A stretch of DNA of 20,711 nucleotides from a virus, in the IMG/VR virus record IMGVR_UViG_3300017740_000114, positions 1-20,711 of that record, one strand, 5' to 3'. The position numbers and the translations under genes were made by a program. Of this stretch, positions 1 to 17,592 are shown piece by piece (position 1 is the first letter of the stretch; the number at the start of each line of letters is the position of its first letter). The notes under the pieces were generated by a model. It made no database searches. It saw only the letters and a list, made by a program, of their open reading frames with translations, and was not told the DNA's origin.

Positions 1-1902
1 AATGCCAATATGGTGGCGAATGAAGTTTTTATCGATACTGCAACTCTAAGAGAGAATGTAATAGCTCTTGCAAGAAATATTGGATATACACCTAAATCAA
101 GAAAAGCAGCAACATCTTCAATATCATTCTTTGTTGACACAACCAACATAACCCCCGTACCAGCATCCCTAACGCTTCGTAAGGGGACGGTAGTAGCGTC
201 TCAGGGAGTCTTTGGCGGTGGGTCGGGGTCATTCTGCATCTTAGACGATATAACGGTCCCTGTGGTCAATAAGATTGCTTCTTTCAATAATATACCAATC
301 TATGAAGGAACCGTTATAGAAAAGAATTTTACATATAGTGCTAGGAATCCTCAGCAAAAATTCATCTTACCCAACATTGGTATTGATACTGAACTGATTA
401 GAGTGGGCGTTAAGAATAATTCATCTTCTACAGCGACTGTAAAATATTCTTTACAAGATAGTTTGTTTTATATTGGATCAGAATCAAAAGTTTATTTTTT
501 ACAAGAAGTATCTGATGAAAGATATGAACTTTTCTTTGGTGATGGAAGTTTTGGTAAAAAACTTGATGACCAGAATTATATTACTGTTACATATTTGACC
601 ACTAATGGAGACGCTGGAAATGGATTTTCACAATTCTCCTTTAATGGAAGAATAACTTATGCAAGAGATGGTAATGAGTACACCGTTACAACTGGAATAT
701 CACTTGTAACACCAGAATTTAGTTCTAGGGGTGGATCTGCGATTGAGGGTGTAGAGTCTGTTAGAAAATATGCACCAAAAATTTATTCAACTCAAAATCG
801 TGCAGTAACCGCAGATGATTATGAAACTCTTATTCCAGCAAGAATATATCCAGATACTGAATCAATTTCGGTCTTTGGTGGAGAAGAATTAAATCCACCA
901 CAATATGGAAAAGTTTTTATTAGTATCAAACCTAAGTTTGGAGATTTCTTGCCAAACCTAATTAAAGAAAATATTAAATTAAAACTAAAGAAGTATGCAG
1001 TTGCAGGTGTTGTACCCGAAATCTTAGATCTTAAATATCTTTATATTGAAATAAGTTCAAAAATTTACTACAACACCAATTTAGCATCGTCATCAGCTGA
1101 TGTTTCTTCAATAGTTTCTACTAATGCCTCTAAGTATGCTAATTCTACTGAATTAAATAAGTATGGTGCTCGTTTTAAATATAGTAAATTTTTGAAAATT
1201 ATTGATGATAGTCATCCATCAGTAACATCAAACATTACTATTATGAGAATGAGAAGAGATTTGAGAATTGTACCAAGTACGATTGCAGAGTATCAAATTG
1301 GATTTGGAAATCAATTCCACATTGCAAATAGTGGTGGATATAATATAAAATCTTCTGGATTTAGAGTTTTTGGAATTTCTGAAAATTTATATCTCGGAGA
1401 CATTCCAAACTCAGAAGGAACAACTGGTTCATTATTCTTTTTTAGTCTTCCAAATGTAGGATCTCAAAATCCATCTATTGTAAGATCTAATATAGGAACT
1501 ATTGATTATATAAATGGGATAATAACTATCAATGCGGTTAATATTATTGCTGGTATAGAAAAAGATGGTCAACAAATTATTGAAATTCAAGCAACTCCAT
1601 TATCAAATGATGTTGTCGGATTACAGGACCTTTATTTGCAACTAGATACTAGTAACAGTACGTTTGAAATGGTATCAGACGAAATTGCATCGGGATTAGA
1701 TCCTTCAGCATCAAGTTATATCGTATCTTCTTCTTATGCAGAAGGTAATTTGGTTCGTGTTGGAGCCCCAGACAATGTTACACCTACTGTAGTTACTACT
1801 GCAGATATTACTACTACTAATAATTCTTTTACTGGAACAACTTCGACTTCCGGTGCTTCTGGTGGATCATCAACACCTTCGGGTGCTGGCGGCGGTTACT
1901 AA
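1..1902 (+). CDS. 6: Baseplate wedge protein gp6 (Baseplate_J family), 5'-partial
   Basis: The reading frame is open from base 1, so the gene begins upstream; the ATG at base 10 is internal (the frame reads NANMVANEVFIDTA across it). 633 residues are visible, and T4 gp6 has about 660. From family knowledge I expect roughly 60-70 N-terminal residues to be missing. Numbering from base 1, the hallmarks are a YELFFGDGSFGKKL segment near residues 175-188 and RAVTADDYETL near 267-277, typical of Baseplate_J/gp6 proteins. In T4, gp6 forms the inner ring that links the wedges around the hub. The C-terminal ~40 residues are a Thr/Ser/Gly-rich low-complexity tail ending in GAGGGY. The gene ends 19 bases before gp7, so the two are probably co-transcribed. 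Bases 151-240 are unusually GC-rich compared with the rest of the gene. Family call is firm; the missing length is inferred. Confidence 0.9.
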   Translation, partial: NANMVANEVFIDTATLRENVIALARNIGYTPKSRKAATSSISFFVDTTNITPVPASLTLRKGTVVASQGVFGGGSGSFCILDDITVPVVNKIASFNNIPIYEGTVIEKNFTYSARNPQQKFILPNIGIDTELIRVGVKNNSSSTATVKYSLQDSLFYIGSESKVYFLQEVSDERYELFFGDGSFGKKLDDQNYITVTYLTTNGDAGNGFSQFSFNGRITYARDGNEYTVTTGISLVTPEFSSRGGSAIEGVESVRKYAPKIYSTQNRAVTADDYETLIPARIYPDTESISVFGGEELNPPQYGKVFISIKPKFGDFLPNLIKENIKLKLKKYAVAGVVPEILDLKYLYIEISSKIYYNTNLASSSADVSSIVSTNASKYANSTELNKYGARFKYSKFLKIIDDSHPSVTSNITIMRMRRDLRIVPSTIAEYQIGFGNQFHIANSGGYNIKSSGFRVFGISENLYLGDIPNSEGTTGSLFFFSLPNVGSQNPSIVRSNIGTIDYINGIITINAVNIIAGIEKDGQQIIEIQATPLSNDVVGLQDLYLQLDTSNSTFEMVSDEIASGLDPSASSYIVSSSYAEGNLVRVGAPDNVTPTVVTTADITTTNNSFTGTTSTSGASGGSSTPSGAGGGY

Positions 1903-1921: not shown

Positions 1922-4900
1922 ATGGCAGAAACAAGAATCAAGTTTAGCAACATCGTTAAGAGTCAACTCCCATTATATGTGGAGAATGAGTTCCCTCTTA
2001 TCTCTGAATTTTTAAAACAGTATTATATTGGACAAGAATATAAAAGTGGACCTATTGATTTAATTCAAAATATTGATCAATATGTAAAACTAGATGAACA
2101 AACTTCAATAGATCATGAAGTAATTTTATCTGGTGATACTGATGCGTTTTCAACAACCATTAATATAAACCTTGAAGATTCACCAAAAGGAACTACGGAT
2201 TTTCCTAGTTCTTATGGACTTCTGAAACTAGGTAACGAAGTAATAACATATACAGGAAAAACATTATCTTCTTTTACTGGATGTATTAGGGGATTTAATG
2301 GAGTAACTTCATATAAGTCGGATTCTAATCCAGGGGAACTTGTCTTCAGTTCCACATCAGCAGAAGATCATAAAGACGGTGATACTATACAGAATTTAAG
2401 TTGTTTATTCTTAAAAGAATTTTTAAGCAAAACAAAAATTCAACTTTTACCTGGATTATCTGAGAGGCCACTCTCGTCCAATATTAACCAGAATTTATTC
2501 ATAAAGCAAGCAAAAGATTTCTATACAAGTAAAGGAACGGATGAGTCATATAGGATTTTGTTCAATGCTCTTTATGGAGTAAATGTTGAAATTGTAAAGC
2601 CAAGAGAATATCTATTCACACCTTCAAATGCTAGAAATTTAGTTACTTCCAATTTTCTAATTGAACCAATTTTTGGTAATCCTTCAGAGTTAGATAGTAG
2701 AACTATATTTCAAGGGGATAATGATGAAACATATACTTCGATATATGGTATAGAAAAAATTAATGCAGGAACTGGAAAAAATTTCTTTAAACTCTCATAT
2801 GATGATGGATATAATAGAGATATTAGAGTTCTTGGATCTACGACAGGTAACTTTAAAGTTGCACCAAAAACTCATATAATTGGAAATGTTTCTGCTGGAT
2901 CAACGTTTATTGATGTTGATTCAACAATTGGGTTCCCAAACTCCGGATCTCTTTACGTAGATTATCCCACAGGAGTTGCTAACCAAACTGGTATTGTATC
3001 CTATACCTCAAAAACAATCACCCAGTTCTTAGATTGTAGTAATATTACCGAAACTTTAATTGATGGTGATACATTAAGTACAGAAGATTTTGCCTTTGTA
3101 AAACCAGATGAAAACAATTCATCAATTGTAGTTCGCCTCTCTTCAGTTCTATCTGGATTTTCAAAACAAGATGGAATATATGATTATAAACCAGGGGATA
3201 GTTTTAATATAAAAACTCTTGGTGTTGAAGAAGATTCATTTAAATTTAAAAATTGGTTATATAATAATCCAGTAAAATATCTAATTGCAGATATTGAATT
3301 AATTGGAAATGTTTCACCAAAAACATATAAATTAACTTTAAACAAAGATAATTATTTGCTACTTGGTGATAATGTGACTGTTACTTCAGCATCAGGTATC
3401 GAAGTTTATAATGCAGAAATTTCTGATATTATTTCGTCTAAAGTTGTAACGATCAAGACTTCTGGTAATCTTATTACTGGTACAGAATATTACTTGCAAC
3501 GAAATATAAGAAAAGCAACGTCTACATTTTTTCCACAAATTAATAAGTTTCATGCAAACATTCAGAATGTTTATAAAAAACAATATGGAGATTCAATTTT
3601 AGTTGCATCAAACTCTTTACCTTCTTATAAAGAAAAACCAATTGTTGCAAATAAATCAACAAAAACTTTTAGTGGTACATTTGTAGGAACAACTTTAAAT
3701 ATAAAAGATCATGGATATTATAGTGGAGAATCTATATCATATACCCCACAAAAAATTGTAAGAAATGTAGACGTTGGTGATGGGCAGATTATAGAAGTTT
3801 CTACAATTTTATCGTCATTATTTGGTGGAGATGATGGTGGTGAAGGAATATATTATGTTTCCAGAGTAGATAACAATAATATAAAATTAGCAAAATCTTT
3901 AGCTAACTTATACACCTCAAAATTTGTAGTTATAGAGAGTACTACTACAGTTAGTAATAACATTCTAGAAAGATCTGAAACAAAAAATAAAAATATAGAG
4001 TCACAAAAACTTTATAGGGAAATTGCTACTCCTATCGATAGTGAAGTTAAAGTAGAAACGAAACCAGGTTCCACTGGAATTTTAGTTAATGGAGTTGAAA
4101 TTTTAAACTATAAATCAAAAGATATAATTCATACAGGAAGACTAGAAGAAGTTAAAGTATCTTCACCAGGAATTGACTTTGATGTAATTAATCCACCAGA
4201 ACTAACTATAGTAGATCCAGTTGGAACTGGTGCATCAGGATTTCTTGCAGTCAATGGAAGTTTAAGAGAACTTAGAATTATTGATAGGGGATTTGATTTT
4301 ACGGAAGTTCCTGTTGTTACGATAACTGGTGGGAATGGTAAGGATGCTAATGCCTTAGTTAATCTAAAGTTAATTTCACACTCTCAAGAATTTTTCTCTG
4401 ATCCTCAATCAAATAGAGTTGGTTTAGGATCTACTCTGTCTACTATTGGATTTTCTACTTATCATAAGTTTAGAAATGGGGAACAGTTAGTTTATAAACC
4501 AAACTCTCAACAAATTGTTGGTGGACTCTCTACTGATGCAACATATTTTGCAGAAGTTGTTGATGCCACTACAATTAAACTTCACAATACTGTTGGAGAG
4601 GCCGTTAGTGGTATTAATACAGTTACCTTATCTTTTAATGGTATAGGAAAACATACACTTGAGTGTTCTTCTAAAAAAGCAGTTGTAGATTCTATTAATA
4701 TTGTTAATAGTGGATTTGGATATCAAAATAAAAAAAGATCTGTTATTTCATCTGGAATTAATACTTCCTCTGATACTATTAATATAGAAAATCATGATTA
4801 TAAATCTGGAGAGATATTGCGATATTCTTCTGGAACTACAAACATTGGCGGATTAAGTAATGGGAATAATTACTATGTTACGGTAGTTGATGATAACAAC

Positions 4901-7900
4901 TTTAAACTATCTGAAATTGGATCTGCAGATGATGAAACTTTCTTCTATAAAACTAAACAATATGTAGATTTTAACACTTCTGGTAGTGGAACACATCACT
5001 TCAATTATATTCCCATCTCAGTATCAATTAAAGGTCCTGTTGGTATAGAAACTGTTACTGGAATTGAATCTAGTGCATATGAAGTTCAGGTTCAACCAAT
5101 TTTTAGAGGAGAACTTACATCGGTACATTTATCCGATAAAGGAACTGGATATGGAACTAATGAGATTATCAACTTTAAAAAACCACCCAATGTATCGATT
5201 ACTTCTGGAAAAAATGCCCAAGTTAATCCAATAGTATCTGCTGACGGAAAAATTGTTGAAGTAATTGTAAATAATGTTGGATCAGATTATACGTCTATTC
5301 CAGATGTAGACATACTCTCTTCTTCTGGAATTGGTTGTGTTTTAACTCCAATAATTGAAAATGGAATGCTTCGTGAAGTAAAAGTTATTGAACCTGGATC
5401 TGGATATATTTCTGGAGATGTTGATATTGAAATAGTTGCAACAGAAAGAGATTTTCAATTTATTCCTAGTCTGCAAACTTGGAGAGTCAATTTGTTTGAA
5501 AAATTATATAATAATAATTTAATCGGATCTGATGATGTAATTGTTAAAGCGGCATTGAATGAAAATTCTGGATTGCAATGTTACTCATTATATGCTCCTA
5601 GAGCATTGAGACAAATGATTTATTCTGTTAGTGAGTCAGGAAAAACTCTTTACGGAAAATTAGATCTAAAATTAGTAAACTCTCAAGAAACAGATTTTAC
5701 AGATCACTCACCTATCATTGGTTGGGCTTATGATGGAAATCCAATTTATGGTCCATATGGATATTCGAAAAAAGATGGGGGACTAGTAACCCTCATGAAG
5801 TCTAGTTACAAACTTAATACATCGCGTGTAAATGGACCACCAGTATCAGTTTTTCCATTAGGATTCTTTGTTGAAGACTTCACATATTATGAAAATGGCA
5901 ATGATGATTATCTTGACAGAAATAATGGAAGATTTTGCATAACTCCAGATTATCCAAATGGAGTATATGCATATTTTGTAACAATTAATCCAGATTCTAT
6001 AGAGTCTTCTGGATTGTTTGAAAACTTTAAACTTCCAACTTTCCCATATACTTTGGGTGACAAATACTATTCAACTCCTAACGAATTTAATTTCAAAAAA
6101 TCATCAAATCAAGATGATTATGATATTGAATCTAATAATTGGTGCAGAAATACAGTTTCATATAATTTAAGAGAAGACGGGGTTGAATACCCTTACATAT
6201 ATTCTCCAAACAATTTATCTCAGACTGGACAGATTGTATCTACAACTAGAGGAAAAGTTTCTAGAGTAGATGTAAAAAGTTCGGGAAATAATTATAAAGT
6301 CGGAGATACTTTAAATTTTTCAGATTCGGATGGAACTGGATTTGGAGCTGCTGGAAGAATTTCTAGACTGAAAGGTAGAGGTGTTAATAGTATTAGTGCG
6401 TCTACATCTAAAGTGTCAGACATAAAATTAATTCCTTCAAAAAAGAAAGGAACTTATATTGTAGAATCTACATCTCCCCACAATTTTAATGCATTAGATA
6501 TTGTCAATATCAGTGGAATTTCTACCACATCATCAAAAATTGAAGGATTCTATACAATTGGTGTATCTAGCGAAAGATTTGCAATATCTGGACTTGGAAC
6601 CACAGGAGTTGCTGTTGGTAGTACAAGTGTTACTGGATTAGTAACGTTCTTTAATGTATCTTCAAGTCTAGTTGGATCAAATATCGTACCTAATGATATT
6701 TTAGGTATTGGAACAGAAAGAGTAAAAGTTTTAAATGTAGATTTTAAAAACTCTAGATTCCGGGTTTTGAGATCCGTAGATGAAACTGTCGGTGGAATTC
6801 ATACTATTGGATCTTTATTGATAGAGGATTCGAGAAGATTAACTATTAATTCTGGATTTAAAGCACCATATGAATTTAAAAGAAATAAAGAAATCTACTT
6901 TGAACCAGGTGAAACTGTAGGTCTTGGTACAACGGCTGTTGGAATTGGGTCAGTATTGCAGTTTAGTTCTTTTGGATTAAACACAATTGGTCTTGGAACA
7001 ACTTTTGGGGCAAGTTCTCTTGCAGTTCCTATTAAATCACTGTATATAAGAAATCATAATTTACAAACCGGTGACATACTAACGTATTCTTCAAATGGTG
7101 GAAATGGTATAGTTTATAATGAATATCAAAATATTGGGGTTGCAGCAACTCTATCGGATAATCAACAATTGTTTGTTGCTAAAATTTCTAATGATTTAAT
7201 TGGAATTGCAACTCAAAGAGTTGGTTTGGGTTCAACTGGCGGATTTGATGGTGTAGGTAATACTTCAAAAACATTATTTTTCACTGGAATTGGTAGTGGT
7301 TCTAATCATAGTTTTAAAACAAATTATACTAATATTTCTGGAGATGTTTCAAAGACAACTGCGACTGTAACGACTGATTCGAATCATGGAATTCGTGCAG
7401 GTCATAATGTTATTGTAGATGTCAACCCATCATTTGCAACAACATATGTTGTAAAATATAATGATAAGCATAGAAGGACTCTAGTTGGAATTGAAACTTT
7501 TAGCGCAATTGGCGTTAATAGCACAACTAATACAATTAATATACTAAACCATGGTTATGAAAGTGGTGATAAAGTAATTCATTCATCATCTACACCATGT
7601 CAAGGATTGGAAAATGATAAGATTTATTATATTGTAAAAGTTGATAATGATAATATTAAATTATCAAACAGTCATTACGAATCAACTAATTTGACACCAA
7701 GTGTAGTTGGAATTTTAAGCACATCATTTGGTGAATTTGGACTTATTAATCCAGTTATTAAATCTTACAGAAGTTCTGAGTTAGAATTTGATATGTCAGA
7801 TTCTAGTTTAGCATTTGTTCAACAGGCTACACAATATTCAGCATTTAAACTTAATTTTTATACTAACGATAGTTATACAAATCTTTGGGAAACTGATCAG

Positions 7901-10900
7901 GTATCTTCAGGTTTCAGTATTTCTAGAACAGGATTTTCTGGAATATCAACAACTGCCAAAGTGGTAGTTTCTATAGGAAAAACCACACCAGAAAGATTAT
8001 ATTATAGGTTAGATCCTATTCTCGACAATAATTTACCTAAACAAAAATCAGAAATAATATCTGATTTAGAAGTTTCTAATCATAATTCCATTTTATCTCA
8101 AAATAGCATTTATAATGGCAATAGAAGAATTTCAATTGCAGGAACTAATTTCTTTACGTTTGAACTGAGTGAAGTTCCAGAATCAAATTCTTATGTATCT
8201 ACTTCATCGAGTATTACTTATACCACAGATTGTACGCATACAAATGGTCCAATATCTGCGGTAGAAGTTACTAGTTCTGGAAAAAATTACACTACTCTAC
8301 CTTCAATAACTTCTATCAATACTATTGAGGGAGAAAGAGGAGATCTTATATCCTTTAGTGATAATATTGGTGTTATTGAAAAAGTAAAAATTAATGATAT
8401 TGGATTTGATTTTCCAACAGACAAAACTTTAAAACCAAGTACTTCTCTGCCGCAAATAATTAATATCGACTCTTTTGCTAAAATTGAAAGTATTACTATT
8501 ACTTCTGGAGGTAGAGGATATTCTTCAGCACCAGACTTAGTATTTTTTGATGGTAAAACTGGCGATGAAATAATCGACCTTTCAACTAAGTATTCTTTGG
8601 GTGATTCTACGGTAACAATTTTAAGCAATACTAGAGGGATTAATAACTCTATTCCATCAGTATTACCAATAAGAAATACTAATGGAGTTGGTATCAGTAC
8701 AGTTGGATTTAGTACAATTACTAAAGATGTAACTGTTGAGATGGCAGTTGGATTTAGTACTGTTGGGAAATTCCCATTTGTAGTTGGTGATCAAGTTATG
8801 ATCGAAAATATCAGTATCGGTGGTACTGAAAGAGGGTATAACTCCAAAGATTATGGATATAAATTATTTACACTCACTTCTGTAACACCAAATATTGGTG
8901 GAATTGGAACAGTTTCGTATAATTTATCTGATGTATTGAATGTGGGAGAACTTCCAGGAGATTTTGATATAATCAATTCTTCTGGAATGATAATCGCAGA
9001 AAAAGATTTCCCAACTTTTAATATTCAATTGACAACTGGAAATTATCTTAGTGGAGAAAAAGTTACCACTAACGGTAAAGAAGGTGTCGTTCAAAGTTGG
9101 GATAGAACAACAAAGATCCTTAGAGTTCTTTCTAGTGATGATTTTGCAAGTGGTGAAGTTATACGAGGACTTACCTCAGAATTATCTGGAGTTGCATCAT
9201 CAATAACTTCTTATGAATCTTACTTTGAAACGGATGTTTCTTCTCAAATATTCAGTGGAAACCAAACTGGATCTGGATTCTTAAATGATCATTTGCAGAG
9301 ATTGCCGGATAATTTATATTATCAAAACTTTTCATATTCTTTAAAAAGTGTAGTTCCATTTGATACCTGGAAAGATACTGTATCTTCATTAAATCATACT
9401 CTTGGTTACAAAAAATTTGCAGACCTTCAAATTGAATCTACAAATTTAGATACCTCTTTATCTGTGGGTATTTCTACAGAATTAACTGATGTTACTGTCG
9501 TCAGTAGTTTGGATGGATTTATAGATCTTAATTGCGTATTTGATTTTGACATTGCTACAGAAAATAATCTTAATTTTTCTGATGGAAATAATATTCTTTC
9601 TAATGAAATTATTTTTAATAATAAAATTCTAAGTGACTTTACAGAATCATTTGGAAATAGAGTTCTTTCTATTGATGATATAAGTCCGAAATTTAATAGC
9701 AATCCAAGATCAACTGCTTTTAGTGTTCTGAATTCTTTTAATTTAAGTGATTCTAGATTTAGAAAATATTTTACTTATCTTAGAGATAAAAGATTTACTC
9801 AAGAAAGACAAGCTTTAATTGTTGATCTTATTCATGATGAAACATTTGGATATATCAACCAATATGCAAGATTAGAAACAGTATATGATCAAGGGTCTTT
9901 CGACTTTTCAATTTCTGGCACAGAAGGTCAACTTTTATTCTATCCAGTTAAGTCATCCGTGAATGACTATGATATTACAACAATTTCATATAATCTAAAT
10001 GACAATTTCTTAAGTACTGGTTCTACTTCTATCGGAGGAGTTTTAATTGATTCGGAAAGCACAATAGTAAGTGCTGGAACGACTGCAACAATTGTAAGTA
10101 TTGGTAACACCTATCATTCACTGAAAGTTCTTGTTGAAATTGCTCCTGATGTAGAAAACGTTTCTTATGGTGCAACATCTACATTTAATGTAAATGAATT
10201 TGAGGCTCAAGAACTTAATATTGTTCATGATGGATCAGATGTTTCTATTTTAGAGTATGGTAAGTTAACTACTTCACTAAGTGGATATAGTGCAATTGGA
10301 TTTGGAACTTACACAGCACGTCTCGATGGATCAAATATTAAACTTGACTTTAATCCATCTGGAATAGGAACTAATGCGGTAGTTAATACTATTGTTGTTG
10401 GTTTATCTTCGATATCTTCAGGAATTTCAACTGTTGACATTAAACATGCCAGATTGCAATCTACCATGACGGATATTGCATCATCTGGTTCTCCAATTCA
10501 AAATGTTGTTGCAGAATATCCAAGTCATATTTCTACTGAAATTGATAGGTATGATGCTGGATATTTTATGATTCAGATTCACGATACAACAAATGATAGA
10601 TACGAATTTTTAGAATATTTTGTTGTTGACGATCATATTGAAGGAGAAACATCTTCAGAAACATTCGATACAGAGTTTGCAAATATTCAAACTCACTCTG
10701 GACTTGGAACTTTTGGTTCTAGAGTAATAGCAAATTCTGTTGGACTCGCTGCAACCACTCAAGTCCTCTTTACACCGATATCAGGAATTGATGCAACCGT
10801 TCATGTATACACAAATGCTCTTAGAATTGAAGATGACACAAAAGATACTATTGATTTTACTAATGGTACTATAGAAACCGGATATGGTACATACACTGGA

Positions 10901-13900
10901 ACTGACAGAGACATAAAGAGAGAGTTTGAACTAACTCACAAGAATGATGCTATCTTTATTAAAGCTTTTGAAGGAGATAGCACTTCAATTGTTAATCTAG
11001 ATTCAAATACAATTACAATTCCAAATCACTTCTATGTGACGGGTGAGCAAATTGAATATACTTGCCCTGGTATTGGAATTACTCAATCCATTGGCATTGC
11101 TCAAACTACATTTCCTGTAACTGGTGTTACAACAACATTACTTCCAGAAACTGGAATATTTGCAATTAAAATTAATGACAACACAATTAAACTTGCTAGA
11201 AGTGCTGAAGATGCTTTAAACTCAATTCCAAAAGTACTTGATTTTACTTCAGTTGGGGTTGGAGTTGGTCACTCATTTACCGCAACAAACCAAAATCCAA
11301 AAGTACTTGTTGCAATTGATAACTTAATCCAGTCACCAATTGTTTCTACGGCAGTTACCACAACATTAAGTGATCAAGTTGTAACAACAGATAATATCGT
11401 CAATTTTACTGGAATCACCTCATTCTTTGGTGGAGATTTATTTAAGATTGGTAATGAAATAATGAAAATTGAGAGTATTGGTATTGGAACAGCAAATGCA
11501 ATCTCTGTTCGTAGGGGGTGGATGGGAACCACTATCCAATCTGGAATTGCAACAGGTAGTTTAGTAACAAAGGTTGTTGGAAACTATAATATTGTTGGAA
11601 ATAAACTCAATTTTGTTGAAGCACCATATGGAAATACTCCAATTGGAACTATAACAAATCCACCAGATCAAAGAGATTATACTGGAATAACTACTAGTTC
11701 TACCTTCCAAGGAAGAAGTTTCATGAGGACAGCGGCTCCAAATACTATTAATGAAACATATTATAAAAATTATGTTTTTGATGACATTTCTAGCAATTTT
11801 AACGGAATTGAAAATGAGTTTACTCTCAAGTCCAACGGAACAAATATAACTGGAATTGATAATGAAGGAGCTATTGTATTAATAAATGACATATTCCAAA
11901 CTCCAGGAAATGCTAATAATTATACTCTTTCCGAAAATACTGGTATAACTTCTATTAGTTTTGTGGGATTTGCACAGACTATAACATCTGATGTTGGTAT
12001 TAGTAGTTTCCCTAAAGGTGGAATAATTGTTTCTGTCGGTTCACAAAAAGGTCTTGGATATCAACCACTAGTGGCCGCTGGCGGTACTGCAATTATTTCT
12101 GGATTAGGAACTATTTCATCTATTAGTATTGGAAATAGTGGATCTGGATATAGATCCGGGATTCAAACTGTCAATGTTAGCGTTGGCACTTCTAGTCTTT
12201 CTGGATTAAATCTAGTTAGAGTTGGAATTGCCTCTATTAATAATGGAAATATAGTTAGTATAGCAATTACTAATCCAGGAACCGGATATACTGCATCAAA
12301 TTTACCATTTGTAGTAGTTGATAGTCCACTTTCATATTCAAATATTCCTTTGACATATACTTCTGGAGTAACTGGATTAGGAACACAAGCAAAAATTGAT
12401 GTTGTAGTTGGTCAAGGATCCAGTATTATTGATTTTGAGATTAAAAACACTGGTTATGGATATGGTAATGGAGAAACCCTTACTGTTGGATTTGGAGGAA
12501 CTACTGGAATTCCAACTACATCAGCGTTTACTTCATCAAATCAGTTTGAAATTGAAATTGAAAAAATCATTAATGACGAATTTACTGGTTGGTCTTTAGG
12601 TGTTATAGAAACGTTTGACGATGTTACTAGATTTATTGATGGCACTAGAATTGACTTCCCATTAATTAAGGCAGGTATTCCAATATCTATCAATAAGGCA
12701 AAAGGATCTAAAATCGAACTTGATCAATTACTTTTAGTATTTGTAAATGAGATACTTCAAATTCCTGGAAACTCATACAAATTTGATGGTGGTTCTCAAA
12801 TAACATTTACAGAACCACTAAAGATTGGTGATAAACTTACAATCAATTTCTATAAAGGAAGTGGAAGTGATCTTGATGTTATTGATAGAGAAGTTCTTGA
12901 AACTATTAAGTACGGAGATGAAGTTACTTTAAATTATAATCCAGATTTGGGACAAAAACCATATCAACAAGAAAATGCAAGAACAATTAGTACAGTAACT
13001 AATATTGATAGAGCTAAAACTCTTCCATATTTTGGTCCAGGCAATACTAGGGATACTACCTTTGAAAGACCAATTACGTGGTGTAGACAAACTGAAGATA
13101 AAATTATTAATGGACAAGAAGTTGGTAAAGATAGAGAACTTTACGAAGCAGTTATTAATCCAACCGCAAACATAATTAATTCGGTTAGTATTGGTTCTAC
13201 AATCATCTATGTTGATAGATTAAGACCGGTATTTGATCTTAATAATGAAAATGTAGATTCTAATTTTAGAGAAACCATTCAAAAAGAAATAACAATTTCT
13301 TCATCTGAAGTAACTGTAGGAGCGTCTGCAACCGCTGTTGTTTCATCTACAGGTACGATTGCTTCAATTGATGTAAACAACGGTGGAGTTGGTTATTCAG
13401 CGGCACCAGACGTTAGTGTTGGTATCGGGTCTATCACAGCAACAGCAACATCAACAATCATTAATGGAGTTGTCACTGGAGTTACTATTACCAATCCTGG
13501 TGCTGGATACACTCAAACTAACCCACCGTTAGTTCTTATCGGTCCTCCTTCACAACAAACAGAAACTTGTGATGTTTCTTCTTATTCTGGAGATTCAGGT
13601 GTTATTGTTGGATTTGGAATAACAACAGTTGGATTGACTAATGAAATTGGTTTAGATTTCCACATTCCATATAACTCAGAATTAAGAAATACAAATCTAG
13701 TAGGTGCTGCGATAACATTAAGTGGAATATCTGTTGGAGATTACTTTACTATATTCAATTCTAATGCTGGTGATGCACTAGGTGGTACACTTACATCTTT
13801 TGATACGTCTAATAACATAATAGGAATTACAACATTATTCATTGATTCAGTATTCCAAGCAAAATCTGTCCAAGTAGTCACCAGAACTATTGGTGGAATA

Positions 13901-14209
13901 TCCACTAATGTTGTAAGAGTAAATTCTTTAGCCACTGGAATAGGAACTATTGGATTTAGTTCGACTACAGAATCGTTTGATAGTACATTGTTCACTTTTG
14001 ACAATTCCGGATTAAAATCATTTACTGGCGGATTTACTACATCCAATTATTTTGGTGAATTTAGTTGGGGTAAAGTTATAGTTGATGCTAGAACTAAAGA
14101 ACTATCGCATGAAGCAAGAACTTTAAATGGATTCTCGGGATTATCAACTTCGGATACATTAACTCGAACAAGATATCTTAGATTTAAAAAGAACACCAAT
14201 ACAATATAA
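1922..14209 (+). CDS. 7: Giant baseplate wedge protein gp7-like with degenerate YHYH domain and internal repeats
   Basis: This encodes 4095 residues. I chose the ATG at 1922 (MAETRIKFSNIV) because it lies 19 bases after the gp6 stop; the frame is open to an ATG at 1853, but that start would overlap the gp6 tail and add 23 unconvincing residues. The call rests on position between gp6 and gp8, as in T4, and on an N-terminus (QLPLYVENEFPLISEFLKQY) that I recall from cyanophage proteins annotated as gp7 wedge initiator. T4 gp7 is about 1030 residues, so this is roughly fourfold larger. Residues ~1-250 look like the conserved wedge head. A YHYH-type domain (IIGWAYDGNPIYGPYGY) starts near residue 1264. 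The rest is beta-rich repeat modules, listed separately. I see no signal peptide, membrane segment or catalytic motif. The C-terminus (ELSHEARTLNGFSGLS) precedes a late promoter that overlaps the stop codon. The gp7 name is well supported by context; the role of most of the chain is unknown. Confidence 0.78.
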   Translation: MAETRIKFSNIVKSQLPLYVENEFPLISEFLKQYYIGQEYKSGPIDLIQNIDQYVKLDEQTSIDHEVILSGDTDAFSTTININLEDSPKGTTDFPSSYGLLKLGNEVITYTGKTLSSFTGCIRGFNGVTSYKSDSNPGELVFSSTSAEDHKDGDTIQNLSCLFLKEFLSKTKIQLLPGLSERPLSSNINQNLFIKQAKDFYTSKGTDESYRILFNALYGVNVEIVKPREYLFTPSNARNLVTSNFLIEPIFGNPSELDSRTIFQGDNDETYTSIYGIEKINAGTGKNFFKLSYDDGYNRDIRVLGSTTGNFKVAPKTHIIGNVSAGSTFIDVDSTIGFPNSGSLYVDYPTGVANQTGIVSYTSKTITQFLDCSNITETLIDGDTLSTEDFAFVKPDENNSSIVVRLSSVLSGFSKQDGIYDYKPGDSFNIKTLGVEEDSFKFKNWLYNNPVKYLIADIELIGNVSPKTYKLTLNKDNYLLLGDNVTVTSASGIEVYNAEISDIISSKVVTIKTSGNLITGTEYYLQRNIRKATSTFFPQINKFHANIQNVYKKQYGDSILVASNSLPSYKEKPIVANKSTKTFSGTFVGTTLNIKDHGYYSGESISYTPQKIVRNVDVGDGQIIEVSTILSSLFGGDDGGEGIYYVSRVDNNNIKLAKSLANLYTSKFVVIESTTTVSNNILERSETKNKNIESQKLYREIATPIDSEVKVETKPGSTGILVNGVEILNYKSKDIIHTGRLEEVKVSSPGIDFDVINPPELTIVDPVGTGASGFLAVNGSLRELRIIDRGFDFTEVPVVTITGGNGKDANALVNLKLISHSQEFFSDPQSNRVGLGSTLSTIGFSTYHKFRNGEQLVYKPNSQQIVGGLSTDATYFAEVVDATTIKLHNTVGEAVSGINTVTLSFNGIGKHTLECSSKKAVVDSINIVNSGFGYQNKKRSVISSGINTSSDTINIENHDYKSGEILRYSSGTTNIGGLSNGNNYYVTVVDDNNFKLSEIGSADDETFFYKTKQYVDFNTSGSGTHHFNYIPISVSIKGPVGIETVTGIESSAYEVQVQPIFRGELTSVHLSDKGTGYGTNEIINFKKPPNVSITSGKNAQVNPIVSADGKIVEVIVNNVGSDYTSIPDVDILSSSGIGCVLTPIIENGMLREVKVIEPGSGYISGDVDIEIVATERDFQFIPSLQTWRVNLFEKLYNNNLIGSDDVIVKAALNENSGLQCYSLYAPRALRQMIYSVSESGKTLYGKLDLKLVNSQETDFTDHSPIIGWAYDGNPIYGPYGYSKKDGGLVTLMKSSYKLNTSRVNGPPVSVFPLGFFVEDFTYYENGNDDYLDRNNGRFCITPDYPNGVYAYFVTINPDSIESSGLFENFKLPTFPYTLGDKYYSTPNEFNFKKSSNQDDYDIESNNWCRNTVSYNLREDGVEYPYIYSPNNLSQTGQIVSTTRGKVSRVDVKSSGNNYKVGDTLNFSDSDGTGFGAAGRISRLKGRGVNSISASTSKVSDIKLIPSKKKGTYIVESTSPHNFNALDIVNISGISTTSSKIEGFYTIGVSSERFAISGLGTTGVAVGSTSVTGLVTFFNVSSSLVGSNIVPNDILGIGTERVKVLNVDFKNSRFRVLRSVDETVGGIHTIGSLLIEDSRRLTINSGFKAPYEFKRNKEIYFEPGETVGLGTTAVGIGSVLQFSSFGLNTIGLGTTFGASSLAVPIKSLYIRNHNLQTGDILTYSSNGGNGIVYNEYQNIGVAATLSDNQQLFVAKISNDLIGIATQRVGLGSTGGFDGVGNTSKTLFFTGIGSGSNHSFKTNYTNISGDVSKTTATVTTDSNHGIRAGHNVIVDVNPSFATTYVVKYNDKHRRTLVGIETFSAIGVNSTTNTINILNHGYESGDKVIHSSSTPCQGLENDKIYYIVKVDNDNIKLSNSHYESTNLTPSVVGILSTSFGEFGLINPVIKSYRSSELEFDMSDSSLAFVQQATQYSAFKLNFYTNDSYTNLWETDQVSSGFSISRTGFSGISTTAKVVVSIGKTTPERLYYRLDPILDNNLPKQKSEIISDLEVSNHNSILSQNSIYNGNRRISIAGTNFFTFELSEVPESNSYVSTSSSITYTTDCTHTNGPISAVEVTSSGKNYTTLPSITSINTIEGERGDLISFSDNIGVIEKVKINDIGFDFPTDKTLKPSTSLPQIINIDSFAKIESITITSGGRGYSSAPDLVFFDGKTGDEIIDLSTKYSLGDSTVTILSNTRGINNSIPSVLPIRNTNGVGISTVGFSTITKDVTVEMAVGFSTVGKFPFVVGDQVMIENISIGGTERGYNSKDYGYKLFTLTSVTPNIGGIGTVSYNLSDVLNVGELPGDFDIINSSGMIIAEKDFPTFNIQLTTGNYLSGEKVTTNGKEGVVQSWDRTTKILRVLSSDDFASGEVIRGLTSELSGVASSITSYESYFETDVSSQIFSGNQTGSGFLNDHLQRLPDNLYYQNFSYSLKSVVPFDTWKDTVSSLNHTLGYKKFADLQIESTNLDTSLSVGISTELTDVTVVSSLDGFIDLNCVFDFDIATENNLNFSDGNNILSNEIIFNNKILSDFTESFGNRVLSIDDISPKFNSNPRSTAFSVLNSFNLSDSRFRKYFTYLRDKRFTQERQALIVDLIHDETFGYINQYARLETVYDQGSFDFSISGTEGQLLFYPVKSSVNDYDITTISYNLNDNFLSTGSTSIGGVLIDSESTIVSAGTTATIVSIGNTYHSLKVLVEIAPDVENVSYGATSTFNVNEFEAQELNIVHDGSDVSILEYGKLTTSLSGYSAIGFGTYTARLDGSNIKLDFNPSGIGTNAVVNTIVVGLSSISSGISTVDIKHARLQSTMTDIASSGSPIQNVVAEYPSHISTEIDRYDAGYFMIQIHDTTNDRYEFLEYFVVDDHIEGETSSETFDTEFANIQTHSGLGTFGSRVIANSVGLAATTQVLFTPISGIDATVHVYTNALRIEDDTKDTIDFTNGTIETGYGTYTGTDRDIKREFELTHKNDAIFIKAFEGDSTSIVNLDSNTITIPNHFYVTGEQIEYTCPGIGITQSIGIAQTTFPVTGVTTTLLPETGIFAIKINDNTIKLARSAEDALNSIPKVLDFTSVGVGVGHSFTATNQNPKVLVAIDNLIQSPIVSTAVTTTLSDQVVTTDNIVNFTGITSFFGGDLFKIGNEIMKIESIGIGTANAISVRRGWMGTTIQSGIATGSLVTKVVGNYNIVGNKLNFVEAPYGNTPIGTITNPPDQRDYTGITTSSTFQGRSFMRTAAPNTINETYYKNYVFDDISSNFNGIENEFTLKSNGTNITGIDNEGAIVLINDIFQTPGNANNYTLSENTGITSISFVGFAQTITSDVGISSFPKGGIIVSVGSQKGLGYQPLVAAGGTAIISGLGTISSISIGNSGSGYRSGIQTVNVSVGTSSLSGLNLVRVGIASINNGNIVSIAITNPGTGYTASNLPFVVVDSPLSYSNIPLTYTSGVTGLGTQAKIDVVVGQGSSIIDFEIKNTGYGYGNGETLTVGFGGTTGIPTTSAFTSSNQFEIEIEKIINDEFTGWSLGVIETFDDVTRFIDGTRIDFPLIKAGIPISINKAKGSKIELDQLLLVFVNEILQIPGNSYKFDGGSQITFTEPLKIGDKLTINFYKGSGSDLDVIDREVLETIKYGDEVTLNYNPDLGQKPYQQENARTISTVTNIDRAKTLPYFGPGNTRDTTFERPITWCRQTEDKIINGQEVGKDRELYEAVINPTANIINSVSIGSTIIYVDRLRPVFDLNNENVDSNFRETIQKEITISSSEVTVGASATAVVSSTGTIASIDVNNGGVGYSAAPDVSVGIGSITATATSTIINGVVTGVTITNPGAGYTQTNPPLVLIGPPSQQTETCDVSSYSGDSGVIVGFGITTVGLTNEIGLDFHIPYNSELRNTNLVGAAITLSGISVGDYFTIFNSNAGDALGGTLTSFDTSNNIIGITTLFIDSVFQAKSVQVVTRTIGGISTNVVRVNSLATGIGTIGFSSTTESFDSTLFTFDNSGLKSFTGGFTTSNYFGEFSWGKVIVDARTKELSHEARTLNGFSGLSTSDTLTRTRYLRFKKNTNTI
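2147..3088 (+). repeat. gp7 module C, copies 1 and 2 (IGNE / RG-turn type)
   Basis: Two diverged protein-level copies sit at 2147-2317 (residues 76-132; LLKLGNEVITYTG then FTGCIRGFNGVTSY) and 2900-3088 (residues 327-389; SLYVDYPTGV then GIVSYTSKTITQFLDC). A third copy is at 11405-11575 (residues 3162-3218; LFKIGNEIMKIESIG then ISVRRGWMGTT). The shared pattern is a Gly-rich lead-in, a hydrophobic strand with LGNE or a substitute, a short loop, then a C/V-R-G turn with Gly-Thr/Ser. Copies 1 and 3 are convincing by eye; copy 2 is weaker. The function is unknown; I infer a small beta domain. Confidence 0.55.
3686..3903 (+). repeat. gp7 module A, copy 1 (NHGY / YYV-VD-N-IKL type)
   Basis: Residues 589-661. 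It opens with LNIKDHGYYSGESISY and closes with YYVSRVDNNNIKLAKS. It is the first of six copies of a module whose pattern is a hydrophobic strand, N/D-H-x-Y/L, x-S/T-G-D/E, a strand, a variable loop, then Y-x-V-x-x-V/I-x-x-N-x-I/F-K/G-L/I. This looks like a compact beta domain. The function is not recognised. Confidence 0.6.
4138..5437 (+). repeat. gp7 repeat region: module B copies 1-6 interleaved with module A copies 2 and 3
   Basis: Module B has the pattern V-x-V/I-x-x-x-G-x-G/D-Y/F-x-x-x-P-x-V-x-I followed by a Gly-rich turn. Examples here are LRELRIIDRGFDFTEVPVV (from 4259), SVHLSDKGTGYGTNEI, VEVIVNNVGSDYTSIPDV and LREVKVIEPGSGYISGDV. Module A copy 2 is at 4421-4594 (STYHKFRNGEQLVY to FAEVVDATTIKLHN), and copy 3 at 4763-4924 (TINIENHDYKSGEILRY to YYVTVVDDNNFKLSE). 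After each of these A copies comes a closing strand of the form F-N-x-x-G-x-H-x-F/L (FNGIGKHTL; FNTSGSGTHHF). The order B-B-A-B-A-B-B-B suggests module shuffling rather than one simple tandem array. Confidence 0.65.
5582..6205 (+). other. Degenerate YHYH domain within gp7
   Basis: The region contains IIGWAYDGNPIYGPYGYS (near residue 1264), matching the characteristic WAYDG-P-YGP segment of the YHYH family (PF14240 by recall). It then has NGVYAYFVTINPD, with YAYF at 5966-5977 (residues 1349-1352) where bacterial family members carry Tyr-His-Tyr-His, and FPYTLGDKYYS, which aligns with the following conserved block. Both histidines of the name-giving motif are therefore absent, so any metal or catalytic role assumed for that motif is unlikely here. 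A structural role in the baseplate is the simpler reading. Domain limits are approximate. Confidence 0.7.
6251..6361 (+). repeat. gp7 module B, copy 7
   Basis: KVSRVDVKSSGNNYKVGDTL followed by FSDSDGTGFGAAG fits the V-x-V-x-x-x-G-x-x-Y pattern and the trailing Gly-rich turn of module B. It lies directly after the YHYH domain. Moderate support by eye. Confidence 0.5.
7028..7678 (+). repeat. gp7 module A, copies 4 and 5
   Basis: Copy 4 is at 7028-7219 (residues 1703-1766): SLYIRNHNLQTGDILTYSS, then LFVAKISNDLIGIATQ, then the closing strand FTGIGSGSNHSF. Copy 5 is at 7520-7678 (residues 1867-1919): TINILNHGYESGDKVIHSS, then YYIVKVDNDNIKLSNS. Copy 5 is the clearest match to copies 1 and 3, especially N-H-x-Y, SG-D/E and V-D-x-N-N/D-x-K-L. 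Confidence 0.65.
8249..8563 (+). repeat. gp7 module B, copies 8-10
   Basis: Three successive copies: ISAVEVTSSGKNYTTLPSIT (from 8252), VIEKVKINDIGFDFPTDKT, and IESITITSGGRGYSSAPDLV (to about 8540, followed by FFDGKTG). The third is close to the best conserved form, G-x-G-Y-S-x-A-P-D-V, also seen at residues near 3823 (GGVGYSAAPDV). Confidence 0.6.
9032..9217 (+). repeat. gp7 module E (SGE-V / TSG type)
   Basis: Residues 2371-2432: NYLSGEKVTTNGKEGVVQSW, a linker, ILRVLSSDDFASGEVIRG, then LTSELSGVASSI. The pattern is a GE-x-V strand, a G-x-x-G-V/A-x-A/V turn, a strand ending L-x-V/L, then a second F-x-x-GE-x-I/V-x-G. Similar units occur in the gp8 gene (about 17146-17280) and twice in the DUF4815 gene (about 17884-17940 and 20284-20463). 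Function unknown. Confidence 0.5.
10112..10822 (+). repeat. gp7 module F, two tandem copies
   Basis: Copy 1 is at 10112-10405 (residues 2731-2828): YHSLKVLVEIAPDVENVSYG, then ELNIVHDGSDVSILEYGKLT, then GTYTARLDGSNIKLDFNPSG. Copy 2 is at 10559-10822 (residues 2880-2967): YFMIQIHDTTNDRYEFLEYF, then VVDDHIEG, GTFGSRVIANSVGL and VLFTPISGIDATVHVY. Shared order of features: a strand ending in an acidic turn, Y-E-F/x-x-E-x-x-V, a loop, G-x-G/L-T-F/Y, then a strand ending F-x-P-x-G-x-x-A-x-V. They appear to be diverged tandem duplicates. Confidence 0.55.
10997..11212 (+). repeat. gp7 module A, copy 6
   Basis: Residues 3026-3097: SNTITIPNHFYVTGEQIEYT, an insert rich in GIGI and TTT, then FAIKINDNTIKLARSAED, and downstream the closing strand FTSVGVGVGHSF. 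This is the last A copy and lies 150 residues after the second F module. Confidence 0.6.
11405..11575 (+). repeat. gp7 module C, copy 3
   Basis: Residues 3162-3218: FGGDLFKIGNEIMKIESIG, then ISVRRGWMGTTIQSGIATGS. It matches copy 1 near the N-terminus (LLKLGNEVITYTG; CIRGFNGVTSY) across more than 3000 residues of separation, which indicates an old duplication or module exchange. Confidence 0.55.
11801..12868 (+). repeat. gp7 module D pair with module B copies 11-13 between them
   Basis: Module D copy 1 is at 11801-11977 (residues 3294-3352; ENEFTLKSNG, then IVLINDIFQTPGNANNYTL). Copy 2 is at 12641-12868 (residues 3574-3649; TRIDFPLIKAG, then LLLVFVNEILQIPGNSYKFD and IGDKLTINFYKGSG). The shared core is hydrophobic-V/I-N-D/E-I-F/L-Q-x-P-G-N-x-Y. 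Between them lie B copies: ISSISIGNSGSGYRSGIQTV (from 12110), IVSIAITNPGTGYTASNLPF (from 12251) and IIDFEIKNTGYGYGNGETL (from 12425). Confidence 0.6.
13352..13549 (+). repeat. gp7 module B, copies 14 and 15 (best conserved)
   Basis: Two adjacent copies: IASIDVNNGGVGYSAAPDVS (from 13355) and VTGVTITNPGAGYTQTNPPL (from 13472). They define the consensus V-x-I-x-N-x-G-x-G-Y-x-x-x-P-x-V. The DNA here is about 46% G+C over 13381-13560 (counted), above the surrounding gene. Confidence 0.65.
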
Positions 14210-16038: not shown

Positions 16039-17592
16039 ATGGCTGCAATTATAACTGATCAAATTAGAATATTAAACGCAAAGAATTTTGTCGCTGGAAT
16101 TGCTAATGCTAACAATTCCTATTATTCTTTTGTTGGACTTCCAAATCCAACAGATTATTCTACGACATGGAACGATAATCCTCCTTCACCAAAAGATAAT
16201 TTTGATGAGGAAAATGATTATTGGAATACAATGATTGCTTTGAAGAGGATTAATTCCTCTGATGTAAGACAGGTTGTTCCAAAGAGAAATTGGTCTTCCG
16301 GAACAACTTTTGACATGTATCGTCATGATTATAGTAGATCAAACACTGCTTCGGTTTCTGGAGCAACTAATCTATACAATTCAAACTTTTACGTTTTGAA
16401 TAGTGATTTTAGAGTTTATATCTGCCTTCAAAATGGAACAGATCCAGAGAATACTCTTGGTAGACCATCTTTAGATGAACCACTATTTACAGATTTGGAA
16501 CCAAGAGCAGCTGGAACTAGTGGTGATGGTTATATATGGAAGTATCTTTATACCATTAAACCTGCGGATATTACTAAATTTGACTCTACAGATTTTCAAC
16601 CAGTTCCGATAGATTGGAGTACTAGTAATGATACTAGTTTAGTCAGAGAAAATGCCGTAGACGGTTCTATAAAAATTGTCACGATAACTAATCGCGGTGT
16701 TGGTTTAGGGACAGCAAATGTAACATATACAAGAGTTCCAATTAAGGGTGATGGGAGTGGGGCAGAGTGTACTGTTACTATTGACGGAGATTCAAAAATC
16801 AATGAGGTTACAGTATCATCTCAGGGATCTGGATATACATTCGGAACTTTAGATTATGAGTCTGGTGGTGTTCCTGTAGGTAGTACTCGACCAACATTTG
16901 ATGTTATCATTTCTCCACAGGGGGGACATGGTGCTGACATCTACAGAGAACTTGGGGCATATAGTGTTCTAATGTATTCTAGAATTGAAAGTGATAATGA
17001 AAATCCAGATTTTATCACAGGAAATCAATTTGCTAGGATTGGGGTTGTCGAAAACCCACTTTCTCCAGCTGGAGGATCGGTTTTAGAAATAGATAAAGCA
17101 AGTGCGGTTAATGCTTTAAAATTGACGGGTGTTGGATATAGTGAAGCATCTTTTACAGCAGATTCTTTTGTCACCCAAGTAGTTGGAACTGGGATCACTG
17201 CAGTAGGTAGAGTTATAAATTATGACCAAAATACTGGAGTTCTAAAACTTTGGCAAGATAGGACTGTTGCTGGATTTACCACAGCAGGCATTGGAATTAC
17301 CAATCCTACTTATGGATTCCTCATGAGGAATTTTACTGGCAATCCAACCGGAGATGGAACCGTTACAATTACACCATCTACAGGATTGCAGTTGAGTATT
17401 GATAGTTCATTTAATGATAACAAAACAACGATAAATAATCGTACATATTATCTTGGAATGGATTTTAGTAGTGGTGTTGCTTCTCCAGAAGTAAAACAGC
17501 ATTCTGGAAATATTATATACGTAGATAATAGACCTTCTATAACAAGATCGTCAAACCAAAAAGAAGACATAAAAGTTATCTTGCAGTTCTAA
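16039..17592 (+). CDS. 8: Baseplate wedge protein gp8, enlarged
   Basis: This encodes 517 residues; T4 gp8 has 334. Family marks that I recognise from T4 gp8 are VVPKRNW (residues 79-85; T4 VIPRRDW), GDGYIWKYLYTIKP (162-175; T4 GDGYVWEYLFEIPP) and the C-terminus HSGNIIYVDNRPSI with a KEDIKVILQF ending (488-517; T4 HSGEMIYMENRPPI and a related end). Gp8 is a dimeric wedge component that contacts gp7 and gp10 in T4. The extra length lies mainly in residues ~205-400. That stretch holds two copies of the gp7 module B (IKIVTITNRGVGLGTANVTY and INEVTVSSQGSGYTFGTLDY) and a module E-like unit near residue 370-415. It is preceded by its own late-promoter box and ends 6 bases before the next gene. The start has no clear Shine-Dalgarno sequence. 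Identity is very secure. Confidence 0.93.
   Translation: MAAIITDQIRILNAKNFVAGIANANNSYYSFVGLPNPTDYSTTWNDNPPSPKDNFDEENDYWNTMIALKRINSSDVRQVVPKRNWSSGTTFDMYRHDYSRSNTASVSGATNLYNSNFYVLNSDFRVYICLQNGTDPENTLGRPSLDEPLFTDLEPRAAGTSGDGYIWKYLYTIKPADITKFDSTDFQPVPIDWSTSNDTSLVRENAVDGSIKIVTITNRGVGLGTANVTYTRVPIKGDGSGAECTVTIDGDSKINEVTVSSQGSGYTFGTLDYESGGVPVGSTRPTFDVIISPQGGHGADIYRELGAYSVLMYSRIESDNENPDFITGNQFARIGVVENPLSPAGGSVLEIDKASAVNALKLTGVGYSEASFTADSFVTQVVGTGITAVGRVINYDQNTGVLKLWQDRTVAGFTTAGIGITNPTYGFLMRNFTGNPTGDGTVTITPSTGLQLSIDSSFNDNKTTINNRTYYLGMDFSSGVASPEVKQHSGNIIYVDNRPSITRSSNQKEDIKVILQF
16663..16875 (+). repeat. gp8 copies of the gp7 module B repeat
   Basis: Residues ~209-279 of gp8 contain two module B copies, the second with the GSGYT core. 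The 13-base string GGATCTGGATATA at 16825-16837 is identical to strings at 5396-5408 and 12140-12152 inside module B copies of gp7, all encoding GSGY. Confidence 0.6.

Follow-up and report, generated by a model that had tools for sequence, protein, structure and literature searches.

A giant gp7-type baseplate wedge gene of a T4-like phage, with a conserved module series and a C-terminal tip that is exchanged together with a fibre gene

The window analyzed here, a virus record of 20,711 bases (IMG/VR record IMGVR_UViG_3300017740_000114), carries a single frame of 4095 residues within a row of baseplate genes, which raises the question of whether its product is a gp7, what its residues consist of, and which role they could play in the baseplate. 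On its plus strand the window contains gp6, the 4095-residue gene, a fibre gene and gp8, followed by the beginning of a VrlC/DUF4815-type gene, as listed below.

10..1902, plus strand: gp6, its start probably lying beyond the window edge (phrog_219, E 1.5e-155; PF21387)
1922..14209, plus strand: gp7-type giant baseplate wedge gene, 4095 residues (open frame; phrog_2885; matches to phage records)
14232..15974, plus strand: fibre gene P0003, 580 residues, starting 22 nt past the gp7 stop (gp9/10-type N-terminus, cupredoxin-like domain, collar domain)
16039..17592, plus strand: gp8 (phrog_438, E 2.6e-163; PF09215, E 3.1e-17)
17599..20711, plus strand: VrlC/DUF4815-type large structural gene, running past the window end (phrog_358, E 6.3e-237; PF16075; called VrlC in relatives)

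Identity and length of the wedge gene

The earlier note on this DNA had placed a protein of 4095 residues at 1922-14209; the coordinates and the length are both correct, and the translation is stop-free. The gene has gp6 upstream and gp8 downstream with one gene between; in the phages Bellamy and S-SM2, gp8 follows directly after gp7. The PHROG profile phrog_2885 ('baseplate wedge subunit'), that of the giant gp7 family of Kyanoviridae, has a long match at E=0 that covers residues 1-3429. Residues 1-2993 are matched by 472 of 50,697 phage records, mostly from Synechococcus and Prochlorococcus phages, with identities that are always below 60% and with Bellamy as the nearest relative (48.6%). 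The tail of the window gp6 is rich in threonine and glycine (...SGGSSTPSGAGGGY; window 1-1902). No tRNA genes were found in the window, and an NCBIfam search gave no match.

The assignment to gp7 comes from a region close to the N-terminus:

2492..2800, plus strand: conserved wedge core, residues 191-293, homologous to T4 gp7 725-813 (hhalign; PDB profile search)

A profile of the N-terminal 520 residues, compared with 177,635 PDB sequences at E <= 10, matched only T4-like gp7 (5hx2 and relatives, E 1.2e-4; a second gp7, E 1.5e-4). In hhalign, a 97-row core profile aligned with T4 gp7 at probability 90.4 (P 1.4e-6), whereas reversed T4 gp7 gave P 0.64 and eight other T4 baseplate proteins (gp12 partial) gave no match (P >= 0.28). 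The 498-residue protein at the gp7 position of Xanthomonas phage X1 has core homology at probability 97.3, and the minimal gp7 proteins of X1 and of Stenotrophomonas phage BUCT608 (503 residues) adjoin gp6-position genes and share the core; an IMG/VR scan with the X1 protein retrieved one locus only. A single-sequence search of PDB with the whole protein had an enoyl reductase as its only match (E 0.012), which was rejected as spurious. Judged by its sequence, the window protein is a true gp7, that is, the wedge subunit of a T4-like (Kyanoviridae-type) phage; its description as gp7-like thus stands, since the core profile finds only T4-like gp7, both in PDB and among nine T4 baseplate proteins.

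The structural model of residues 1-580 (mean pLDDT 73.7, pTM 0.50) has predicted N-terminal helices at residues 8-54 of low confidence (pLDDT 37-48), and residues 447-528 align with a beta barrel that is widespread among proteins. Foldseek ranked the T4-like baseplate chain 9f4a_A0 (1031 residues) second (E 4.2e-4, TM only 0.10) and the T4-like chain 5iv5_BJ 28th (TM <= 0.10); because of the TM of 0.10, Foldseek support for the gp7 fold is weak. The gp7 family does not appear among the VIA rows shown for the core.

A passage of a 2020 paper (PMC7029224) states that pelagi- and cyanomyophages have no T4 gp7, for which VrlC appears to substitute. This published statement is what speaks for a reading in which the window protein is not gp7 and VrlC replaces it, a reading that we consider very improbable: with the first ~1037 residues of VrlC, no match to T4 gp7 was obtained (hhalign probability 0.1, P 0.45), in contrast to the window core with its P of 1.4e-6. 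As far as that passage goes, the substitution of gp7 by VrlC does not hold for the cyanophage-type gene found here by sequence comparison, and the core assignment corrects the printed statement that these phages have no gp7.

The earlier note had also named artificial joining of the frame by assembly as an outcome that would overturn its reading. One contig (L085) is 99.8% identical to the window gp7 over residues 926-4095, another (L087) is 91.5% identical over residues 28-4095, and six isolate phages encode collinear homologues of 4067-4337 residues at 38-52% identity. Since independent contigs and six isolates carry the collinear protein, the gp7 frame is not an artefact, and artificial joining is ruled out.

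The length was regarded in the same note as unusual, a view that fails among cyanophages. Short complete gp7 frames are those of X1, BUCT608 and T4 (498, 503 and 1032 residues, respectively). Complete giant frames occur in S-CAM3 (3045 residues), S-PM2 (3048), S-CAM9 (3884), S-SRM01 (3895), Bellamy (4067), SynMITS9220M01 (4067), S-SCSM1 (4120), S-SM2 (4156), P-TIM68 (4307), S-B43 (4337) and P-HM2 (4454), and the longest complete frames read are those of Sf-CH5 (4878), S-SCSM2R (5172) and P-SSM2 (5195). In P-SSM4 the gene is annotated at 57144-79082, corresponding to ~7,312 residues, of which 5,546 codons were read as open. The gp7 gene of Bellamy takes up 6% of its record (12,204 of 204,930 bases). 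In the passages cited here, the 'baseplate wedge initiator' of S-SZBM1 (6,619 residues) was detected in virions with 71 peptides (PMC9146016), and a gene of S-CREM2 flanked by two other wedge genes (5,814 bases, 1,937 residues) yielded 91 unique peptides (PMC10665884). A giant gp7 of 3,045 to about 7,312 residues is therefore normal in cyanomyoviruses, and giant gp7 proteins are an already known, annotated and virion-detected family of ocean phages that seem to have cyanobacteria as hosts.

Two contigs, L078 (1719-3257 and 3261-12848) and L081 (3010-4551 and 4555-10737), carry a separate core gene followed by an arm gene. Their core frame has 513-514 residues and a glycine-rich C-terminus like the end of the window gp6; the arm frame continues from about residue 420 of the window gp7. 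In L009 (1816-13008) and L048 (5529-16382), gp7 lies in several frames, probably as a result of sequencing or assembly errors or of decay.

It is improbable that gp7 works as two chains, with the core cut from the arm or, in some phages, encoded apart from it. The separate core frames of L078 and L081 (to ~residue 420) and the two gp7 frames of B23 (2845 and 1081 residues) are consistent with such a division; however, each of the other complete isolate genes that were examined lies in a single frame, and the 6,619-residue product of S-SZBM1 was detected, according to the passage cited above, though peptides cannot show an uncut chain.

Repeat modules and predicted fold

The residues beyond the core are largely organized into repeats. 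We compared 90-residue profile segments with the whole profile, using an alignment of seven homologues, and obtained 220 off-diagonal matches at a score of >=30 in the gp7 profile, versus 0 on the reversed profile. Module HMMs (E < 0.01) located six families in the window protein, with A present in 6 copies, B in 11, C in 3 (one of them weak, E 0.0032), D in 2, E in 2 and F in 2; the reversed control of all six families gave 0 matches under E 0.01. The features of this region are as follows, assigned by module HMM unless another basis is given.

2126..2293, plus strand: E module 1 (residues 69-124), inserted in the core (HMM E 4.7e-17; VIA Z 9.8 to phage GP4 chain 8jov_1)
2876..3043, plus strand: E module 2 (residues 319-374) (HMM E 8.7e-19; VIA Z 10.7, 77 residues, rmsd 2.2, to phage Mystique tail tube 9n71_A)
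3689..3916, plus strand: A module 1
4127..4348, plus strand: B modules 1 and 2
4439..4606, plus strand: A module 2
4769..4915, plus strand: A module 3
5108..5437, plus strand: B modules 3, 4 and 5
5696..5998, plus strand: YHYH-type domain (residues 1259-1359) (PF14240, E 1e-23, 84.7 bits, cut-off 25)
6623..6838, plus strand: F module 1
7037..7231, plus strand: A module 4
7523..7687, plus strand: A module 5
8240..8554, plus strand: B modules 6 and 7
9800..10873, plus strand: C modules 1 (weak) to 3 (residues 2627-2984)
11003..11221, plus strand: A module 6
11348..11584, plus strand: F module 2
11774..11962, plus strand: D module 1
12104..12328, plus strand: B modules 8 and 9, near the ~3450-3463 insertion of relatives
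12614..12811, plus strand: D module 2
13343..13552, plus strand: B modules 10 and 11

The self-comparison and the clean reversed controls support the earlier proposal that modules within a family are homologous to each other. That note gave no sequences, and on the assumption that its letters denote the same families, its counts (A6 B15 C3 D2 E1 F2) are reproduced for A, C, D and F and changed for B (11 at the cut-off) and E (2); it had missed the E modules within the core. Tandem Repeats Finder found no DNA-level tandem repeats in the window, thus the gp7 repeats are old and detectable only at the protein level.

The order of the modules reads EEABBAABBBFAABBCCCAFDBBDBB in the window, EEABBAABFAABCCCAFDBBDBB in Bellamy and EEABBAABBBFAACCCAFDBDB in S-SM2, and it is much kept in the 5195-residue protein of P-SSM2 (EEAAABBBAACCCAFDADB), with weak B copies appearing or vanishing between phages at the HMM cut-off. 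Module HMMs found no A or C modules in S-PM2, S-CAM3 or the first 5,546 codons of P-SSM4, and the latter contain 17 B copies. As read from these strings, the gp7 modules form a conserved series, the order of which is largely common to related phages; the shuffling that had been proposed for them is accordingly rejected as a general description. None of the six families was found by module HMMs in T4 gp7, in agreement with the earlier suggestion of a part not present in T4. An insertion of ~197 residues after residue ~3450-3463 has been recurrently gained or lost among relatives, with a shorter form of ~86-92 residues in five loci (L222, L130, L131, L134 and L226); counting only insertions >100 residues, it changes 8 times on the tree.

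The E modules align with small phage tail protein domains, namely the two chains listed above (9n71, 8jov) and 8vjh (Z 9.1), and E module 1 falls in an alignment gap in the 498-503-residue gp7 of X1 and BUCT608. The model of segment 575-1185 consists of confident beta modules (mean pLDDT 89.3, pTM 0.75), so that the extended outer structure envisaged in the earlier note is plausible as a beta-rich one. Foldseek of the repeat segment gave no match at E <= 0.001, and its VIA rows are dominated by one barrel. Near the end of the YHYH-type domain (window 5696-5998), YAYF stands at the site where, going by the family name, we presume a YHYH motif, and the histidines therefore appear to be lost.

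A different function for this region would be that of a receptor-binding organ, with glycans on the host surface bound by lectin-like A modules and by the YHYH-type domain in place of the long tail fibres of T4; we consider it unlikely. The A-module regions align with barrels that include the phi92 endosialidase 4hiz (Z 7.1) and endosialidase NF 3ju4 (Z 6.7, 22% identity), at VIA scores close to the level of common arrangements. The barrel of endosialidase NF binds polysialic acid. The best PDB match of the A profile is likewise 4hiz, though weak (E 0.021), and the D modules resemble a K1-specific depolymerase (E 1.4e-4). However, unrelated barrels outscore the endosialidases, the best alignment being that to Uba1 (Z 9.2), and among close relatives identity differs rather little along the body, where no highly variable patch precedes residue ~3316. 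In the parts of the reports drawn on here, S-SZBM1, with its 6,619-residue gp7, shows no long tail fibres (PMC9146016), and S-CREM2, with a 1,937-residue protein at the gp7 position, has a long tail fibre gene (PMC10665884), a contrast that consists of two phages.

The C-terminal tip and the fibre gene

The end of the protein, which the earlier note had not singled out, behaves differently from the rest of the gene and is tied to the fibre gene downstream:

13604..14206, plus strand: exchangeable C-terminal tip (residues 3895-4095), proposed fibre socket (identity drop versus L100)
13958..14017, plus strand: 20-residue hairpin of the tip (residues 4013-4032), named for its inferred shape (presence tied to the fibre cassette)

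In segments of 25 residues, the window protein is 72-96% identical to that of contig L100 from residue 3720 to 3894 and 12-68% identical from there to the end; overall, identity falls from 86% immediately ahead of the tip to 40% inside it, and is 97% across the N-terminal half of gp8. In distant fibre-bearing relatives (L110, L119, L126 and L129), identity to the window is 49-52% before the tip and 55-59% within it. These comparisons show that the final ~200 residues stand apart from the rest of gp7 and move between phages in one block with the fibre gene.

We tabulated 64 loci with a visible gp7 stop, comprising the window, IMG/VR loci and seven isolates; for loci that do not reach gp8, scoring of the cassette relied solely on the motif at the N-terminus of the gene that follows. 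Of the 34 loci in which a gp9/10-type fibre gene lies downstream, 33 have the hairpin, and of the 30 loci that have no such gene, 29 lack it. The two exceptions are S-B43 (L224), which has the cassette and no hairpin, and L145, in which hairpin residues were scored without a cassette in a poor alignment (29% identity). In the 29 loci with neither, gp8 starts 20-73 bases past gp7. The first fibre gene mostly starts 21-34 bases past gp7; in S-SCSM1 (L227) another frame lies between them, a gene at 20374-20925 annotated as 2OG-Fe(II) oxygenase. The cassettes of L110, L111, L116, L117, L140 and L141 contain a second frame of ~296-886 residues (partial in L111), with N-termini like MTQYVVTVKKGTDIDSFY or a loose variant of it. 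The more distant giants S-PM2, S-CAM3 and P-HM2 have other C-termini and lie outside the 64-locus count.

Relatedness among the loci was taken into account with two trees, both of the quick kind with SH-aLRT support only. The first tree, with 62 rows that include two very long branches (L145 and L224), gave 5 independent pairs, 4.0 of them in the same direction, 0.3 opposite and 0.7 with no difference (p 0.125). The second was built from the gp7 body without the tip for 45 of the 64 loci, leaving out L145, L224, 8 short-body rows and 9 near-copies, and in it long branches meet (L116 with L223; L226 with L227). On supported branches of this tree the cassette changes at least 7 times, and the hairpin follows it in 7 of 7 independent pairs (sign test p 0.0156). 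The insertion at ~3463, a control within the same gene ~430-450 residues before the tip, is uncoupled from the cassette (0.5 same, 0.5 opposite and 6 of 7 with no difference).

This pattern could also arise by linkage, with tip and fibre gene swapped only as neighbours, the tip contacting gp8 or another wedge protein, and the arm being a spacer or structural skirt. The block that is exchanged forms one contiguous piece, one crossover within the final ~200 codons would yield the same pattern, and one recombination event could move tip and fibre gene without protein contact, because the two adjoin. Against this, the hairpin is kept across fibre-bearing phages with bodies ~50% identical, and also in the isolates P-TIM68 and S-SCSM1, and the other indel in the gp7 gene is uncoupled from the cassette. 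We therefore hold neighbourhood alone to be a possible but rather unlikely explanation; since linkage alone could give co-transfer, the contact between tip and fibre is something that we infer.

The fibre gene itself encodes a product with a gp9/10-type N-terminus. Residues 3-45 of P0003 match PF07880, the N-terminal family of T4 gp9/gp10 (E 1.9e-5, just at cut-off), and the protein matches phrog_677, 'baseplate wedge tail fiber protein connector' (E 9.7e-47). Residues 360-461 (window 15309-15614) resemble a cupredoxin domain with the full set of what we take to be type-1 copper ligands (H, C, H, M), and all four residues are kept in 47 of 49 distinct related segments from the fetched loci. 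The segment falls within phrog_677 and other tail-fibre families; it has no PDB sequence match and no match to a Pfam copper family, and no description of a cupredoxin-like domain in a phage fibre was found in the open-access papers searched.

Proposed architecture and known systems

Taken together, these data favour, with a probability of roughly 0.6, a gp7 that serves as wedge scaffold and combines a homologous core, a long arm of beta modules and an exchangeable tip acting as fibre socket. As in T4 and XM1, each of the six wedges would have two gp6 copies joined by the N-terminal part; the module chain would form a long beta-rich arm at the baseplate rim, and the C-terminal tip would be the socket for the gp9/10-type fibre P0003, so that contact of the fibre with the host could pass to the wedge. 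The plan would be that of an enlarged T4/XM1 gp7, with the core in the wedge, inserted E modules, the beta arm and a C-terminal socket. In T4, as described in the cited part of PMC3004832, gp7 is a monomer present in six copies per tail, forms the pins with gp10 and gp11, and swings its domain A outward on host contact. In XM1, the passages cited from PMC10457771 describe a gp7 orthologue (gp17) of 242 residues with an N-terminal helix-turn-helix that joins the core bundle and with two unresolved stretches, one of them the C-terminus, that bind the tail spike. No solved structure of a baseplate of the giant type was found.

More tentatively, and at slightly less than even odds, we propose that ocean T4-like phages exchange the C-terminal ~200 residues of gp7 jointly with the gene of the fibre that plugs into them, that the arm is a modular fibre carrier with one chain standing for gp7, gp10 and gp11 of T4, and that the cupredoxin-like domain of the carried fibre has all the ligands of a type-1 copper site. 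No description of the conserved module order, of the assignment of the core to gp7 or of the exchanged tip-fibre cassette was found in the open-access papers searched; the tip exchanged with the downstream fibre gene appears to be the new part. Cyanomyoviruses abound in the ocean, and a gp7 tip whose form varies with the fibre gene offers a concrete, testable socket, which would help to predict the fit between fibre and baseplate. The module boundaries given here can serve for expressing and solving pieces of this very large protein.

Among known systems, the closest are gene 111 of Synechococcus phage Bellamy (baseplate wedge initiator, 4067 residues) and its counterparts in S-SM2, SynMITS9220M01, S-B43, P-TIM68 and S-SCSM1, which share with the window the gp6-gp7-gp8 order and the same module families and are collinear with it across 3,916-4,008 aligned residues at 38-52% identity; Bellamy, S-SM2 and SynMITS9220M01 differ in lacking the tip hairpin and the inserted fibre gene. 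The giant 'baseplate wedge initiator' of S-SZBM1, found in virions with its 71 peptides, is likened to the window protein by its giant size, as given in the cited part of PMC9146016. X1 and BUCT608 share the core homology and the place in the gene row, but have neither the E insertions nor the module arm. T4 gp7 (PDB entries including 5hx2 and 5iv5) has the homologous core and the neighbours gp6 and gp8, however it lacks the A-F modules, and its extra mass lies mostly before the conserved core (about 725 residues, compared with about 190 in the window), whereas that of the window gp7 lies mostly after it (about 3,800 residues).
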